A DNA stretch of 64,000 bases from assembly GCF_001997295.1 (NCBI RefSeq), contig NZ_CP019605.1, positions 806,001 through 870,000 on the forward strand, read 5' to 3'. Shown in pieces: positions 1,428 through 33,711 of this stretch; position 1 is the stretch's first letter; each line of letters starts with the position of its first letter. The position numbers and the translations under genes were made by a program. Source of the DNA: Tessaracoccus flavus. GTDB taxonomy: Bacteria > Actinomycetota > Actinomycetes > Propionibacteriales > Propionibacteriaceae. The notes under the pieces were generated by a model. It ran no database searches, was not told where the DNA came from, and saw only the letters and a program-made list of their open reading frames with translations.

Positions 1428-2291
1428 GTGAGTGGCAATCCTGCTGCGTCGCGTCGACGGACGGTTCGGGCGGCCTTGGCCCTCGGCGTCCCGCTCGCTC
1501 TCGCGAGCCTGACAGCCTGTTCAGCTGAAGAGGGGGCGGTGTTCTTCGGTCTTCCCGAGGCGGCCTCCGAGCAGGCGGAGAACGTCGGCGACCTGTGGCT
1601 GGGCGCCTGGGTGGCCTCCCTGGTCATCGGCGGCTTGGTGTGGGGGCTCATCGGCTGGGCCGTCGTGCGGTACCGCAACCGGAATGGCGACGACGCCCCT
1701 CCGCGGCAGACCACGTACCACCTCCCGCTGGAACTGCTCTACACCCTCGTGCCGTTCCTCATCATCGGCGTGCTGTTCTTCTACACCGTCAAGACCCAGG
1801 ACAGCGTCCGGAACTTCGAAGGCGAGCCCGACGTCGAGATCGGCGTCATCGGCCAGAAGTGGTCCTGGACCTTCAACTACATGGAGGAGGGCAACCCCGA
1901 CGTCGGCACCAACGCCTACACCGTCGGCACCCTCGAGACCATCCCCGAGCTGTACCTGCCTGTCGACAAGACGATCCGCTTCAAGCTGGAGTCCGCCGAC
2001 GTCATCCACTCGTTCTGGGTGCCGGTGTTCCGCGACAAGCTGGACGTCATCCCCGGTCACACCAACTACCTGACGGTGACCCCCAACAAGGTGGGCACCT
2101 ACGACGGCAAGTGCGCCGAGCTCTGCGGCGAGTTCCACTCGCTCATGCTCTTCAAGGTGCACGTCGTCTCCGAAGAGGATTACGAGGCGCACGTCAGGGG
2201 GCTTGCCGAGGGCGGCAACGCCGGCGAGCGTCAACTGCAGGAGGCCTTGCAGGCCGTCCTGCCCACTGCCGCACCCGAGGAGAACCAGTGA
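1428..2291 (+). CDS. ctaC: Cytochrome c oxidase subunit II (CtaC), lipoprotein form
   Basis: Subunit II of the aa3 oxidase (287 residues). It accepts electrons at the CuA centre and passes them to subunit I. The start is GTG at 1428 with GGAAGG about seven bases upstream; the longer open frame from 1332 has no support. The N-terminus has a signal segment ending in the lipobox LTAC. Two transmembrane helices follow, then the extracytoplasmic cupredoxin domain with CuA ligands in [12 protein letters not shown] (Cys, Cys, His, Met) and an upstream His in VIHSFW. The stop overlaps the ctaD start (GTGA), so the two are translationally coupled. Confidence 0.96.
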
Positions 2292-4012
2292 GCAGCGATC
2301 TGACCGCGAGCCGCACTCAGCTCGTCGAAACACCCGTCCAGGCTGAGCCCCACCGGCTCGGCGCCACCATGATGAAGTACCTGACGACCACTGACCACAA
2401 GGTCATCGGCAACATGTACTTCTTCACTGCGTTCGCGTTCTTCCTGTTCGGTGGTCTGCTGGCGTTGGGCATCCGCGCTGAGCTCGCGAACCCGGGCATG
2501 CAGTTCATGAACTACGAGACGTACAACCAGTTCTTCACGATGCACGGCACGATCATGCTGCTGATGTTCGCGACACCGATGTTCGCGGGCTTCGCCAACG
2601 CCATCCTGCCGCTGCAGCTCGGCGCGCCCGACGTCGCCTTCCCGCGCATGAACGGCTTCTCGTTCTGGCTGTACGTCCTCGGTTCCCTCATCGCCTGCGC
2701 GGGCTTCCTCAGCCCGAACGGCGCCGCAAGCTTCGGCTGGTTCGCATACGCGCCGCTGAGCAACTCGATCCACTCGCCGGGGGTGGGGCACGATCTGTGG
2801 ATCGTGGGCCTCTACATGCTCGGCCTGTCGTCGATCCTCGGCGCGGTCAACTTCGTCACGACCATCATCACGATGCGTGCGCCCGGTATGACCATGTTCC
2901 GCATGCCGATCTTCTCGTGGAACATCCTCGTCACCTCGATGATGGTCCTCCTGGTGTTCCCGGTCCTCGGCGCCGGTCTGCTGGTGTTGGAGTCCGACCG
3001 CGTGCTCGGCAGCCACGTCTTCGATCCCGCGTCCGGCGGGCCGATCCTCTGGCAGCACCTCTTCTGGTTCTTCGGGCACCCCGAGGTCTACGTGATCGCC
3101 CTGCCGTTCTTCGGCATCATCACCGAGGTCCTGAGCGCCTTCAGCCGCAAGCCCGTCTTCGGCTATTACGGCCTGGTCTTCGCGACGCTGTCCATCGGCG
3201 CGCTGTCGGTGTCGGTGTGGGCGCACCACATGTTCGCCACCGGCGCGGTCAACCTGCCGTTCTTCTCGTTCATGACCTTCATGATTGCGGTGCCCACTGG
3301 GGTGAAGTTCTTCAACTGGATCGGCACGATGTGGCGAGGGTCGCTGGTGCTCAACACCTCCATGACCTTCGCGATCGGCTTCCTCACCACGTTCCTCTTC
3401 GGTGGACTCACCGGCGTCATCCTCGCAGCACCCGCTCTCGACTGGCACGTCACCGACTCGTACTTCGTCGTCGCCCACTTCCACTACGTGCTGTTCGGCA
3501 CGGTGGTGTTTGCGATGTTCGCCGGCTTCTACTACTGGTGGCCGAAGTTCACCGGACGCATGCTCAACGAGGGCTGGGGCAAGGTCCACTTCTGGACCAC
3601 GTTCGTCGGCTTCCACACCACGTTCCTCATCCAGCACTGGGCCGGCACGAAGGGCATGCAGCGCCGCATAGCGGACTACGGCGCCTGGGAGGGCTTCACG
3701 GTCTTCAACCAGATCTCGACGTTCGGCGCGTTCCTTCTCGGCGTCTCCATGCTCCCCTTCCTGTGGAACGTGTGGATCACCCGTAAGGCACCCAAGGTCA
3801 CGGTCAACGATCCGTGGGGCTGGGGCCGCTCGCTGGAGTGGGCGACGTCCTGCCCGCCCCCGCGGCACAACTTCGACTCGCTGCCGCGCGTCCGCTCGAT
3901 CAGCCCGGCGCTCGACGCCGCTCGACCGGAACTCGTCGACGTCGACCATCAGGCCGACCCGGGTGAGCTCCTCGACCACGATGTCAACGAACTGGAAGGC
4001 ACCCACCGATGA
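2288..4012 (+). CDS. ctaD: Cytochrome c oxidase subunit I (CtaD)
   Basis: Catalytic subunit (574 residues) holding heme a and the heme a3-CuB site where oxygen is reduced. Visible motifs are the HPEVY block (WFFGHPEVY), the CuB ligand region AHHMFATG and the late HFHYVLFG heme block. About twelve hydrophobic helices are present. GTG at 2288 overlaps the ctaC stop; the open frame extends far upstream to 1595, but that part only shadows ctaC. Unlike M. tuberculosis, where ctaD sits elsewhere, here it follows ctaC directly. The C-terminal 60 residues are hydrophilic. Confidence 0.97.
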
Positions 4013-17156: not shown

Positions 17157-17269
17157 GTGGCCACATGCTACCCCGCCGGTCCGGGCGCCGTAACCCTGTC
17201 CTGTTGAGAGGGAGGAAGGCGTGCGGGCACCCGCGTCGTGGCCTGGCGACGACGGCGCGGAGTGCGCGA

Positions 17270-17550
17270 CGCCAACCGTCGGCGCTCCACGCCAACGGAC
17301 CGCCGCAACGCCAACAGACCGCCGCAACGCCAACGGACGGGCCGAGACGCCGACGAGACTCAGCGACGCCCCCGAGATATCACGGGCGAAGCTGATAGCC
17401 GTCGGCGTATGGCCTTCTCAATTGGCGTTTGGGTCTACCTGTTGGCGTTTCCACTTCCGGCTTGGCGTTCAGCGACGGACGGTTGGCGTTTCCCGATTCC
17501 CGTTGGCGTTTCCCGATTCCCGTTGGCGTTTCCGTATTCCCGTTGGCGTT
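17270..17550. repeat. Palindrome-centred 20-bp periodic repeat element, copy 1
   Basis: Left arm: CGCCAAC at 17270, 17290, 17309 and 17328. Core: GACGCCGAC, ACTCAGC, GAGATATC (17374-17381), GCTGATA and GTCGGCGT. Right arm: TTGGCGTT at 17422, 17442, 17462, 17483, 17503, 17523 and 17543. The arms carry the same word in opposite orientation with a 19-21 bp pitch. The innermost pair (AACGCCAAC and ATTGGCGTT) is centred 47.5 bp on each side of the core centre at 17377.5. No credible reading frame crosses it. It lies between the guaB1 5' end and the qcrB 3' end. Confidence 0.9.
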
Positions 17551-17603
17551 CTGACCTGTTGGGTGGAGAGTTGGGGGCCTCTACCCAGCCCGACGACGCG
17601 AAC

Positions 17604-17631
17604 GAGGCGCCGTCCGGGTGGACGGCGCCTC
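17604..17631 (-). terminator. Hairpin after qcrB
   Basis: GAGGCGCCGTCC pairs perfectly with GGACGGCGCCTC across a 4-base loop. It is placed to end the qcrCAB/ctaE transcript. The U run on the minus strand is weak (GTTCG). Confidence 0.7.
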
Positions 17632-17646
17632 TTTCGGCTGGGAGGG

Positions 17647-19344
17647 TCAGTGCAGCTCGCGCGGAGGCGTCGAGCCTGAGCCGACCGCTACGTGATCATC
17701 GTCGTGGTGGTGAGCCGCCTCGATCTCGGCCGCAGTCGGTTTGGCGATCTCGTGGCCCAGATACCACCTGGACAGGCGCGCGCGGAGCTTGCTGATGCCG
17801 CCACGACGGGCGACGCCCGAGGCGTCCGTGCTGCCACCGGCAACGAGCGGCTTGTGCTGCAGGTGCTGCGTGAGGACGAACTGCTCGTCGTGGCTGAGCG
17901 GCAGGTGATCCTCGTAGTAGCGGCCCTCCGGCGTGCGGATGATGACGCCGGACTCGGAGCCGTGGAGCGCACGCTCGCGGTCGGCACGCTGCAGGGACAG
18001 GCAGATCCGCTTCGTGATGATGTAGGCGATCACGGGGCCGACGAACACGGCGACTCGCAGGAACATCGTGATCGCGTTCAGGTCGAGGTAGAACCGTGTC
18101 GCGATGATGTCGTTGCCGCCACCGATGAAGAACAGCCCGTAGGCGGTGATCCCCGCCACCCCGAGCGCAGTGCGCGTGGGGGCGTTGCGCGGCCGGTCGA
18201 GGAGATGGTGCTCCCGCTTGTCGCCGGTCAGCCAGGCCTCGATGAACGGCCACACGCCCAGCGCAGTGAAGAGCAGGCCCATGAGCCCCACACCGGGGAG
18301 GAACACCGCCCAGGTCCACGTGGTGCCGAGGAGGTAGCTTTCCCAGGCCGGCATGATGCGGATCGCGCCCTCGACCCAGCCCATGTACCAGTCGGGCTGG
18401 GACCCGGCGGTGACCTTGGCCGGATCGTAGGGGCCATAGGTCCACACGGGGTTGATCTGGAACAGGCCACCCATGAGCACCAGGACGCCGAAGACGATGA
18501 AGAAGAAGCCGCCGGCCTTCGCCATGTAGACGGGGAAGAGCGGGTAGCCCACCACGTTGTTCTCCGTGCGGCCGGGGCCCGGGTACTGGGTGTGCTTGTG
18601 GTAGACCACGAGCGCCAGGTGCGCCGAGATGAGACCGAGCAGGAGCCCGGGGATCAGCAGGATGTGGGCCATGTAGAGGCGCGAGATGATCAGGCCGCCG
18701 GGGTACTCCCCGCCGAAGACGAAGAACTCGGCCCACGTGCCGATGATCGGGATGGAGCGGATCAGCCCGTCGACGAAGCGGAGGCCAGTGCCCGAAAGCA
18801 GGTCGTCGGGCAGCGAGTAGCCGGTGAAGCCCGCCATCAGCGACATGGATAGCAGCCCGACGCCGATCAGCCAGTTCACCTCGCGGGGCTTACGGAACGC
18901 GCCGGTGAAGAAGACGCGCAGCATGTGCACCGTGGCCGAGGCCACGAAGAGCAGCGCCGCCCAGTGGTGGATCTGGCGCACGAGGAGACCGCCGCGCACA
19001 TCGAAGGAGATGTTCAACGTCGAGGCGAAGGCCTCCGAGACGGGCATGCCCTTGAGGAGCTGGTAGGAGCCGTCGTAGTGGATCTCCGCCATCGACGGCT
19101 TGAACCAGATGGTCAGGAAGACGCCGGTCAGCAGCAGGACGATGAAGGAGTAGAGCGCGATCTCGCCGAGCAGGAACGACCAGTGGTCCGGGAAGACCTT
19201 GCGGAGTCCCGCTTTGCCGATCTTGCCGAGCCCGAGCCGCTCGTCGGCCCAGCCGAGCGCGCCGGGAGCCCCGCCGCCCTTGCGGGGGGCCTGCTGGGCC
19301 TCGATGGCGGGGGAGGCGTCAACGACGCTGGTGGGCTTGGCCAT
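17647..19344 (-). CDS. qcrB: Cytochrome bc1 complex cytochrome b subunit (QcrB)
   Basis: 565 residues. It holds hemes bL and bH and both quinone sites. Visible are the paired heme histidines (RQIHHWAALLF and TVHMLRVFFTG; SAHLALVVYHKH for the second pair), GYSLPDDLLSGTGLRF at the Qo side and the PEW-equivalent loop QPDWYMGWVEG. Eight helices and the long actinobacterial C-terminal tail are present. ATG 19344 overlaps the qcrA stop (GTGATG), with GTG 19347 also possible. Last gene of the ctaE-qcrC-qcrA-qcrB operon. This subunit is the family target of bc1 inhibitors such as Q203 in mycobacteria. Confidence 0.97.
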   Translation of the reverse strand: MAKPTSVVDASPAIEAQQAPRKGGGAPGALGWADERLGLGKIGKAGLRKVFPDHWSFLLGEIALYSFIVLLLTGVFLTIWFKPSMAEIHYDGSYQLLKGMPVSEAFASTLNISFDVRGGLLVRQIHHWAALLFVASATVHMLRVFFTGAFRKPREVNWLIGVGLLSMSLMAGFTGYSLPDDLLSGTGLRFVDGLIRSIPIIGTWAEFFVFGGEYPGGLIISRLYMAHILLIPGLLLGLISAHLALVVYHKHTQYPGPGRTENNVVGYPLFPVYMAKAGGFFFIVFGVLVLMGGLFQINPVWTYGPYDPAKVTAGSQPDWYMGWVEGAIRIMPAWESYLLGTTWTWAVFLPGVGLMGLLFTALGVWPFIEAWLTGDKREHHLLDRPRNAPTRTALGVAGITAYGLFFIGGGNDIIATRFYLDLNAITMFLRVAVFVGPVIAYIITKRICLSLQRADRERALHGSESGVIIRTPEGRYYEDHLPLSHDEQFVLTQHLQHKPLVAGGSTDASGVARRGGISKLRARLSRWYLGHEIAKPTAAEIEAAHHHDDDHVAVGSGSTPPRELH

Positions 19345-20408
19345 CACTGGTCACCGTCCTTGAAATCGTTGCGCGAATCGCGCTCGAAGTAGCTGGGGCC
19401 GACGGGGACGCTGAAGTCGCCCTGAGCGACGAGGTAACCGTCCTGGTTCACCTTGATGGCGAGCTGCGGGAGTGCACGCGCGGCCGGGCCGAAGACGGGG
19501 ACACCGCTGTTGCCCAGATCGAAGGTGGACTGGTGGCAGGGGCACAGCAGGTGGTGCGTCTGACGCTCCCACAGCGAGATGGGGCATCCGACGTGCGTGC
19601 AGATCTTGGAGTAGGCGAGGATGCCGCTGACGTGCCAGTCCTTGCGCGACTCGGGGATCTTGATCGAGTTGGGATCCATCCGGACCACGATGATCGCGGC
19701 CTTGGCCTTCGCCTGGTGCGCCTCGACGCCGTGCAACTCCCGCAGGTTCTCCGGCTGCGCGTTGACGAGCTGGCCGATCTCGATGTCCTCGGGGCGGAGC
19801 TTGACCCAGTTCTCGTCGTTGACGAGGACGACGTCCTCGGCCCAGATGGTCCGCTCGATCGTCTGCTCGCGCACGCGCTTCGTCGGGTGGGGTCCCATGT
19901 CCGCGAGGAGCACGAGTGCGGGCACCACTGAGATCCCGAGCGCCCCGCCGAGGGCCCCGAGCAGCAGCTTCCGGCGGCGGACGCCCGACTGCTCGACGCC
20001 CTGGTCGTACAGTGCGCCCAGCGCTGCCCGGTCCTCGGCGGAGGTCGCCGCGGTGTGGCGGAACTCCACCGACTCCTCGTCACCCATGAGCACGCGTGCC
20101 CATTGGATGACGGCCACGCCGATGAGCGTGACGGCGAGGCCTGCGGTGAGGCCGAGGCCGACGTTGAGGGCGCTGGCCCGGATGATGCCGAAGTCGAGCA
20201 CCATGTCCTTCGGCACCGCGAAGTAGATGACGACGAACGCGATGGCCAGCAGCGGTACGAGGCCGAGCATGGTCAGGATCGCCAGATAGGCCCGGTTCCC
20301 GGCGCCCTCGTTGACGTCCGTGTAGCGCGGGATGTGCTCTTCCAGCCCCGGGTTCGCCACGCTGTGGCCCAGGTCTGGGTCGTGCACCGGGAGGTTGTCG
20401 TGGCTCAT
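19344..20408 (-). CDS. qcrA: Cytochrome bc1 complex Rieske iron-sulfur subunit (QcrA)
   Basis: 354 residues with three transmembrane helices, as in actinobacterial Rieske proteins. The [2Fe-2S] motifs are CTHVGCPIS near residue 267 and CPCHQSTFD near residue 288. It shuttles electrons from quinol at QcrB to QcrC. A signal-like KLLLGALGGALGIS follows SGVRRR, resembling the Tat-dependent third helix of these proteins. It overlaps qcrC at its start and qcrB at its end. Confidence 0.97.
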   Translation of the reverse strand: MSHDNLPVHDPDLGHSVANPGLEEHIPRYTDVNEGAGNRAYLAILTMLGLVPLLAIAFVVIYFAVPKDMVLDFGIIRASALNVGLGLTAGLAVTLIGVAVIQWARVLMGDEESVEFRHTAATSAEDRAALGALYDQGVEQSGVRRRKLLLGALGGALGISVVPALVLLADMGPHPTKRVREQTIERTIWAEDVVLVNDENWVKLRPEDIEIGQLVNAQPENLRELHGVEAHQAKAKAAIIVVRMDPNSIKIPESRKDWHVSGILAYSKICTHVGCPISLWERQTHHLLCPCHQSTFDLGNSGVPVFGPAARALPQLAIKVNQDGYLVAQGDFSVPVGPSYFERDSRNDFKDGDQ

Positions 20409-32712: not shown

Positions 32713-32896
32713 AACGCCAACCGACCAGGGACAACGCCAACTGAGATCCGACGACGCCCGCCAGACTCAGCGACGCCCGCGAGATCTCACGGGCGTAGCT
32801 GAGTTTCGTCGGCGTCTTGGCTTGTCGGTTGGCGTTTGCCGCTCTCCGTTGGCGTTTCCAGTTACCGGTTGGCGTTGGCCGCTCCCGGTTGGGGTT
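32713..32896. repeat. Palindrome-centred 20-bp periodic repeat element, copy 2
   Basis: Left arm: CGCCAAC at 32715 and 32735. Core: ACTCAGC, GACGCCCGC, GAGATCTC (32781-32788), CGGGC, GCTGAGT, then GTCGGCGTC. Right arm: TTGGCGTT at 32829, 32849 and 32869, and a degenerate TTGGGGTT at 32889. The 9-mers AACGCCAAC/GTTGGCGTT lie 47.5 and 67.5 bp from the core centre (32784.5) on both sides, an exact dyad. The internal distances are the same as in copy 1. It sits between two convergent genes. Confidence 0.9.
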
Positions 32897-32916: not shown

Positions 32917-33711
32917 TCAGCTCGCTCCCCGCGGTCCGGCAGCGCCGATGTCCAGGATGAAACGGCGCGACTCGTCGATGATCCGCTGGCGATCATAGTC
33001 CATCGTCGCGACGTGGTAGCTCCTGGTCAGCACGCGTTCCTCCACCCTGGGCACCGCGGCGCGGATCAGTTCTCCGCTCAGGTCGTCGACGACGTGGTCC
33101 TGGGCGGACCGCAGCAACAGCGTCGGCGCGGAGACACGGGGCAACCTCGGGCGGGTGTCTCGCCACAGGTCGTCCATCGTGCCCAGGCTCTTCACCGAGA
33201 ACCGTGGGTAGCCCGGCTCGCGCTGGGCGGGGTCGGCGATATCGGAGGAGATGCCCCGCTGGGGCGGCAGCACGTTGCGAAGGCGTGCGGCCACGGGAAT
33301 CCGACGGTCCCGTGACGCGACGGCCGGGTTGACCAGCAGCACGCCGTCGACTGGGTGCAGCGACGCCAGTCGAAGCGCCAGCGCTCCGCCCATCGACAGA
33401 CCGGCGACGAACACGGCGGAGCACTCCGCAGCCAGCCCCAGGTAGGCGTCCTCGACGGCGCCGTACCAGTCCCACCAGCGGGTGCGGGCCAGGTCCTGCC
33501 AGGACGTGCCGTGCCCAGGTAGCCGCGGGGCGACGACACGGGCACCTGGCCACTCGCCGGATGGTTCGGCCAGGCCTCGTGCCCAGGGGGCGACGGACGC
33601 GACGGAGCCGGTGAACCCGTGGGAGATGACGATGCCAGTGTCCCCGTCGCCCAGTCGGAGCGGCCGAGCCTCGGGCCAGACGGTGGGGGAGGGGGCAGGG
33701 AATACGCGCAT
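32917..33711 (-). CDS. Alpha/beta hydrolase (carboxylesterase/lipase type)
   Basis: 264 residues. The nucleophile elbow is VAGLSMGGALAL (Ser), the oxyanion region GIVISHGFTGS, the acid Asp probably in LLLRSAQDHVVDD and the catalytic His in TRSYHVATMDYD. It resembles bacterial monoacylglycerol lipase or carboxylesterase Est30. ATG 33711 is chosen; the frame extends to 33804 but overlaps the plsC promoter. Its divergent neighbour plsC suggests a lipid context. Confidence 0.88.
   Translation of the reverse strand: MRVFPAPSPTVWPEARPLRLGDGDTGIVISHGFTGSVASVAPWARGLAEPSGEWPGARVVAPRLPGHGTSWQDLARTRWWDWYGAVEDAYLGLAAECSAVFVAGLSMGGALALRLASLHPVDGVLLVNPAVASRDRRIPVAARLRNVLPPQRGISSDIADPAQREPGYPRFSVKSLGTMDDLWRDTRPRLPRVSAPTLLLRSAQDHVVDDLSGELIRAAVPRVEERVLTRSYHVATMDYDRQRIIDESRRFILDIGAAGPRGAS

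Follow-up and report, generated by a model that had tools for sequence, protein, structure and literature searches.

The window analysed here, a stretch of 64,000 nucleotides, corresponds to bases 806001–870000 of the Tessaracoccus flavus genome (G000), a single contig of 3,222,890 bases. A dyad-symmetric element, copy 1, occupies positions 17269–17550 of the window between an IMP dehydrogenase-type gene (PF00478; 15696–17156, minus strand), whose start points towards the element, and a cytochrome b (qcrB-like) gene (17647–19347, minus strand), whose 3′ end points towards it. Copy 1 consists of a core, placed at genome position 823322 by the covariance model R1, with four full words on its left and seven on its right. 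The left array (17269–17334, minus strand) carries CGCCAAC words at 17270, 17290, 17309 and 17328 with spacings of 20, 19 and 19 bp, and the right array (17422–17550, plus strand) carries TTGGCGTT words at 17422, 17442, 17462, 17483, 17503, 17523 and 17543 with spacings of 20, 20, 21, 20, 20 and 20 bp. The initial annotation had reported these four and seven words at 19–21 bp spacing, and re-reading bears it out; the words are not due to chance, because ten pairs of TTGGCGTT 11–14 bp apart occur in the window and none in 100 dinucleotide shuffles. The core palindrome (17348–17407, dyad between 17377 and 17378), read in the sequence and in the consensus of 76 cores, contains two degenerate inner words per side on the same lattice that the annotation had overlooked: CGCCGA (17348–17353) and TCGGCG (17402–17407) at 27 bp from the dyad, and CGCCCC (17367–17372) and CGGGCG (17383–17388) at 8 bp.

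Outside copy 1 and directly behind the cytochrome b gene, a hairpin with 17-nt arms of 94% complementarity (17599–17636, minus strand) is probably the terminator of this gene. Rfam produces three matches at E ≤ 1 between 16800 and 18000, all far under the gathering scores, and the RF02552 match (17550–17635) touches only the last base of copy 1. Behind the cytochrome b gene (qcrB) of another genome, G018, GGACGGCGCCCTCCGG tracts stand in several tandem copies and resemble a multiplied terminator stem. A second element, copy 2 (32713–32896; dyad between 32784 and 32785; R1 core at genome position 838729), has two full words on the left and three on the right, plus a degenerate fourth as the last unit. 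It is located between the 3′ ends of two convergent genes, namely an NlpC/P60 gene (31536–32678, plus strand) ending 34 bp from the element and an alpha/beta hydrolase gene (32917–33711, minus strand) ending at it.

The genome of T. flavus contains at least 80 copies of the element in 3.22 Mb. R1, which was built from 23 cores, gives at least 150 matches that reduce to 76 distinct cores, 74 of them matched on both strands, and all 150 matches listed cover model positions 1–114 over 114 bases without an indel. Four further word clusters outside the R1 list each have a core and arms on reading; the statistics on G000 elements rest on the 76 R1 cores. A BLAST search of G000 with the core of copy 2 finds, among the matches listed, 78 at 40 places. 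The word-pair pattern occurs 130 times on the forward and 127 times on the reverse strand of the whole genome, and its reversed control pattern does not occur at all. Eleven stretches of G000 away from known cores contain at most one word apiece.

All of this describes a palindromic core of fixed build from which arrays lead outward, in which the innermost GTTGGCGTT word is centred 47 bp from the dyad and the next ones follow on a 20-bp lattice. For the exact 6-mer, 66 right and 67 left sides among the 76 cores place the centre of this innermost word at 47.0 bp, and outer word peaks lie at 67, 87, 107, 127, 147 and 167 bp. The innermost words are thus equidistant from the core centre, as the annotation had claimed; its distance of 47.5 bp fits a longer word, and the centre of the 6-mer gives 47.0 bp. 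Up to 400 bp from the 76 dyads, 610 words point outward and 11 inward. Consistently, an arm walk that tolerates a single mismatch and shifts of at most 2 bp meets the first word at 47 bp in 149 of 152 arms and in none elsewhere. It counts 317 right and 316 left words, and the earlier claim of variable arm length is confirmed by a range of 0–11 words per arm over the 152 arms; these are under-counts, because the walk ends at the first degenerate unit, and the element at 1914604 yielded no words although words follow there. Among 484 steps, the spacing is 20 bp in 429, 19 bp in 24, 21 bp in 27 and 18 or 22 bp in 4. The consensus of the 76 cores extends the lattice inward, where GGCG words have their centres at 27 and 8 bp. 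In the 429 units of exactly 20 bp, the information amounts to 16.2 bits in the nine word columns and to 3.2 in the eleven spacer columns. The outermost word is GTTGGCGTC in 48 of 124 arms compared with 18 of 125 one step inward. Left and right arm sizes are weakly correlated (r 0.25). Arm length changes by tandem duplication, because units resemble their neighbours within one arm (identity 0.50 at lag 1 and 0.48 at lag 2, compared with 0.37 between elements).

Genes were called with a home-made caller based on codon usage; all 76 elements lie between called genes, and six of them overlap a called gene end by 1–36 bp. Convergent gaps hold 33 of the 76 elements and make up 14 of 126 element-free control gaps of at least 80 bp from the same stretches (Fisher p 2.8e-7); divergent gaps hold 5 of 76 compared with 50 of 126 (p 8e-8). 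Elements between co-directional genes are nearer to the upstream stop in 30 of 38 cases (medians 44.5 and 150 bp), and 48 of 104 element-side gene ends lie within 40 bp of the element. G020 elements often separate C-rich from G-rich DNA; a GAGCGACCGTATCGAGGGGCGTCC tract stands on either side of the G000 element near 548010, and a CTGAGTAGCGCCGACGAG tract is repeated beside the one near 2715830. One frame, open at the left end and at least 6,666 codons long, spans G000:C1:220001–240000 and would encode a giant, repetitive-looking protein. An AbiEi/DUF559-like gene beside one element was considered as a driver and rejected, there being no second homologue among the 430 called genes of the G000 stretches examined.

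The initial annotation had proposed to look for copies in relatives, and R1 indeed matches at E ≤ 0.05 in 12 of 38 other genomes of the genus; searched with this single model, 26 have no match. The annotation had also tied its reading to conservation of pitch and symmetry. In the relatives read, the elements retain the pitch and the dyad but mostly not the word, so that this check did not refute the reading. The word is GACGCCAACGATATT in G020, G045 and G019, GACGCCCGCC in G012 and G024, GACGCCAGC in G022, GCGCCAAC in G053 and G014, and GCTGGTGTC in G010; that of G043 is close to the G000 word. There is a tendency towards one word per genome, and G012 and G024 mix word types. The inner words are 26 bp apart at all 24 R1 places read in G020 and all 16 in G045. 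Including two extra places, the next word stands exactly 32 bp from the dyad on each side in 40 of 42, and the third stands at 52 bp in 17 and 18. Words at 13, 32 and 52 bp thus compare with 8, 27 and 47 bp in the G000 core, with steps of 19 and then 20 bp in both, and the distance between the inner words is one helical turn more (26 bp compared with 16 bp). Exactly five words are present in 20 of 25 G020 elements, and both ends of the G020/G045 consensus read GTTGGCGTCTGC outward.

Beyond the genus, three TGGCGTY words at the element pitch match in 7 of 393 genomes of the class, with 231 matches in G000 (control 2). Outside G000 there are at most three per class genome and the control pattern also reaches three, so that a wide occurrence of such triples in the class was rejected. 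A scan of named genomes gave at least 120 stretches, and the 80 listed are mostly 49-base matches, which correspond to a 21-bp pitch. Of 13 others that were read, five loci, from Sporosarcina sp. NCCP-2222 and Sporosarcina cyprini, of an unrelated phylum, have long one-sided arrays at 20-bp pitch; their words TTGGCGTTC and CTGGCGTTC are similar to the G000 word, the spacers alternate, and there is no palindromic core. Short TTGGCGT or ACGCCAA arrays at 19–21 bp pitch are also seen in Nocardia colli, a Nonomuraea sp. and a Lachnospiraceae MAG.

Element positions mostly differ between G000 and the other genomes. Ten clusters of similar flanking proteins appear to join nine G000 elements to elements of other species at 48–97% identity. 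In the clearest of them, a MerR-family gene, which we take to be hspR, flanks an element in four species (G000, G020, G012 and G043) and lies 1.2 kb from one in G024; its family assignment is a PF13411 match, scanned in G000 only. The words of the elements at this gene follow the species, and therefore either the position is old and its words have changed in concert, or the place has been targeted repeatedly. A 681-aa gene, read as gyrB, flanks an element in G000, G020 and G045. For the site of copy 1, the cytochrome b protein is found in 28 of 37 genomes of the genus, and no YTGGCG word pair 18–22 bp apart occurs in the gap behind the gene or within 400 bp at any of 30 loci (28 relatives). 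The pair of cytochrome b and IMP dehydrogenase-type genes (qcrB–guaB) is kept in 23 relatives with gaps of 6–349 bp, compared with 490 bp in G000, and copy 1 is absent in all 23; it is therefore either a gain of this lineage or has been lost from every one of those relatives.

Gain and loss were followed by comparing G020 with G045. For 12 G020 elements with no counterpart detected in G045, the flanking sequences gave 19 matches in that genome, from which nine sites were aligned and five judged. The elements at 192355, 231211 and 2525262 are missing from the aligned G045 site, where the nearby flank has changed too. At the G020 loci 1429289 and 2477639, G045 retains a piece of the element end, and these two are therefore losses by deletion, not insertions. 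A 2.3-kb block of G042 (G042:C268, about 1590–3955) has the one G000-type element of that genome at its edge. The block is 92.7% identical to G000, compared with 82–83% for the other G042 stretches that were compared, and is flanked on either side by the end of a transporter gene. Because of this high identity and the transporter ends, the element would have come with transferred DNA, and the block is an apparent gene transfer carrying one element.

An alternative explanation is a MITE-like or REP-like mobile repeat that is non-autonomous: its words would bind a copying enzyme, its placement would reflect tolerated insertions, and its function for the host would be none or secondary. The lineage-specific positions, including the empty qcrB–guaB gap, and the three elements absent from aligned G045 sites would agree with this, and so would the five-word G020 copies, whose consensus reads alike outward at both ends as in copies of a master, and the outermost word of G000, which often differs from the inner ones. 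However, no target-site duplication as in a MITE was found: best k-mer counts are not above those of shuffled pairs, in a test that a variable or lost duplication would escape. The Y1 transposase family PF01797 has no match in G000, with control matches in 5 of 14 genomes, and the element-end remnants in G045 speak of loss. Moreover, words conserved in every copy next to free spacers are unexpected of decaying neutral copies. A mobile repeat is unlikely as the whole explanation. A phage or plasmid origin was rejected since no phage or plasmid sequence matches the element; 19 viral stretches with three words have only 50-base matches, that is, a 21-bp pitch, and are taken for coding repeats.

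The symmetry of the element raises the question of whether nucleic acid pairing or protein binding is kept by selection, and the initial annotation had offered both a very long imperfect hairpin and cooperative protein binding on one DNA face. When left-arm spacers are compared with the right arm of the same element and with the arms of other elements, the complementarity of the first spacer is 0.401 within and 0.398 between elements (z 0.1; 64 elements). The next spacer gives z 0.3 (43 elements), the spacer inside the first word z −1.6 and the inner word z −2.2. Copy 1 folds well as one RNA strand (z −6.1), as any inverted set of words would. The long hairpin as a selected feature is not supported by the co-variation test, despite this single-strand fold. 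Only core positions 8–15 co-vary in G000 (0.901 compared with 0.842 in shuffles, z 8.1), and positions 0–7 and 16–23 are not above shuffle (z 0.6 and 1.4). Such co-variation favours a possible short core hairpin, or it may reflect two core subfamilies of the CAGCGACG and CATCGACG types. No co-variation is seen in the loop, word and first spacer of the G020/G045 elements (z −1.0, 0.0 and 0.6); their second spacer has a pairing deficit (z −4.1) because the third word is usually one-sided. Protein on one face of the helix seems to fit better than a long hairpin, because words are conserved and spacers free, the phase is exact, the spacing to the dyad is fixed and the arms do not pair. The other proposal of the annotation is thereby supported indirectly, through the 20-bp lattice, the fixed core spacing, the outward words and their conservation.

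A related possibility is that the element acts at gene 3′ ends as a transcription terminator or RNA element, in either direction, via the core hairpin. The convergent and 3′ placement, with nearly half of the element-side gene ends within 40 bp, would be expected of it, as would the co-variation of core positions 8–15 and the fold of copy 1; G020 elements between co-directional genes also turn the longer arm towards the upstream gene in 10 of 12 cases (p 0.04). However, this orientation bias is absent in G000 (20 against 14, p 0.39), the core co-variation is absent in G020/G045, and the upstream gene at copy 1 already has a separate hairpin behind it. A scan for a hairpin plus T-run finds 8 of 104 element-side gene ends compared with 9 of 100 other ends. 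Furthermore, the arms do not co-vary, and a terminator has no need of them. This explanation is improbable.

The distribution along the chromosome is uneven. By quartile of distance from dnaA (2,946,046), G000 has 26, 23, 20 and 7 elements (KS p 0.003), uncorrected for gene content; elements are sparse near the terminus, and core-gene content could account for this depletion. Arm size does not depend on the distance from the origin. Among the R1 places listed, 24 of 25 in G020 (p 2e-5) and 11 of 16 in G045 (p 0.016, with loci shared with G020) are in the origin half. To our knowledge, the sites of Noc (Bacillus subtilis) and SlmA (Escherichia coli) are single sites without outward phased arrays. 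They are otherwise alike to the element in being of similar number and palindromic, spread over most of the chromosome and few near the terminus, as far as counts uncorrected for gene content allow. Noc has about 70 palindromic sites, of which the terminus region is largely free, and the protein nucleates at them and then spreads (PMC4331003). Nucleoid-occlusion-like sites that mark unsegregated DNA for the division machinery would be a special case of a chromosome-wide protein site, to which the roughly 80 palindromic G000 sites and the origin bias in G020 correspond. However, the ParB family PF02195 has a single match in G000, at 2941123 near dnaA, where an ordinary ParB is expected; hence there is no second ParB-like protein and a Noc paralogue of that family is ruled out. 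The bias in G045 is also less clear, and a nucleoid-occlusion role is improbable.

Several known repeat systems share parts of the layout. Plasmid iterons are direct repeats at a replication origin, spaced by about two helical turns, to which a protein binds cooperatively. The direct repeats of the element have about the same step; unlike iterons, they stand as inverted sets about a dyad in at least 80 chromosomal copies between ordinary genes. BOX elements of pneumococci are modular intergenic repeats whose middle module varies in number. The present elements are likewise modular and intergenic with a variable number of internal units, but in them it is the outer units, on either side of a fixed middle, that vary. 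REP, REPIN and BIME repeats are described in PMC3733652 and PMC3116915 as dispersed, intergenic and palindromic, placed behind genes or between convergent or co-directional genes in lineage-specific sets, and the elements resemble them in lying between genes, at gene 3′ ends and between convergent genes. The REP repeats of the GTAG and CGTC super-families are 20–40 bp hairpins with a GTAG or CGTC tag, single or in dimers, and the CGTC-tagged ones have, according to PMC3733652, a stem of 8–9 bp, a loop of 4–5 nt and an unpaired CGTC at one end. In contrast, the element repeats a 9-bp word, not itself palindromic, in 20-bp steps outward from a single fixed core, and by eye this word is not a stem-loop. 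A REPIN driven by a RAYT is ruled out by the absence of a PF01797 match in G000.

The explanation towards which we lean, by a modest preference, is that each element is a composite site recognised by a DNA-binding protein that is sequence-specific and oligomerises, with a chromosome-wide role rather than control of a single promoter. Binding would start with a symmetric pair of subunits at the palindromic core and continue away from it in both directions, with one subunit to each 9-bp word; as the words are two helical turns apart, all subunits would lie on one face of the DNA. The role may be to anchor or organise the nucleoid or to insulate gene ends, as is suggested by the preference of the copies for gene 3′ ends and convergent gaps and by their scarcity near the terminus. 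However, the placement by itself might also reflect where insertions are tolerated, and core positions 8–15 co-vary as those of a hairpin would. The 26 of 38 genomes of the genus without an R1 match also stand against a protein site of this kind, in that such sites would not be needed genus-wide unless other words hide them. Judging from the lineage-specific positions and the uniform five-word copies of G020, the sites seem to spread in the manner of a repeat family as well, and both readings can hold.

The composite site may, more tentatively and with the odds rather against it, belong to a new class of chromosomal nucleoprotein sites. Members of such a class would be nucleated at a dyad and extended outward in two-turn steps at about 80 places in one species, with words that change together genome-wide at positions some of which, such as that at the MerR-type gene, persist across species, which would amount to concerted co-evolution of site and protein. 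No description of the layout was found in the openly licensed papers searched, from which a class with dyad-nucleated two-turn arrays is absent and in which the element words occur as whole words only in an unrelated context. If the element is a mobile repeat instead, its inner lattice is kept far better than its spacers, unlike in simple decaying REP or MITE models. If a protein coats the arrays, the genus would have a system for organisation or insulation across the chromosome, and its DNA code would be unusually clean. Because the number of sites and the arm length vary by copy and the word varies by species, the binding rules and their co-evolution would be readable from sequence.
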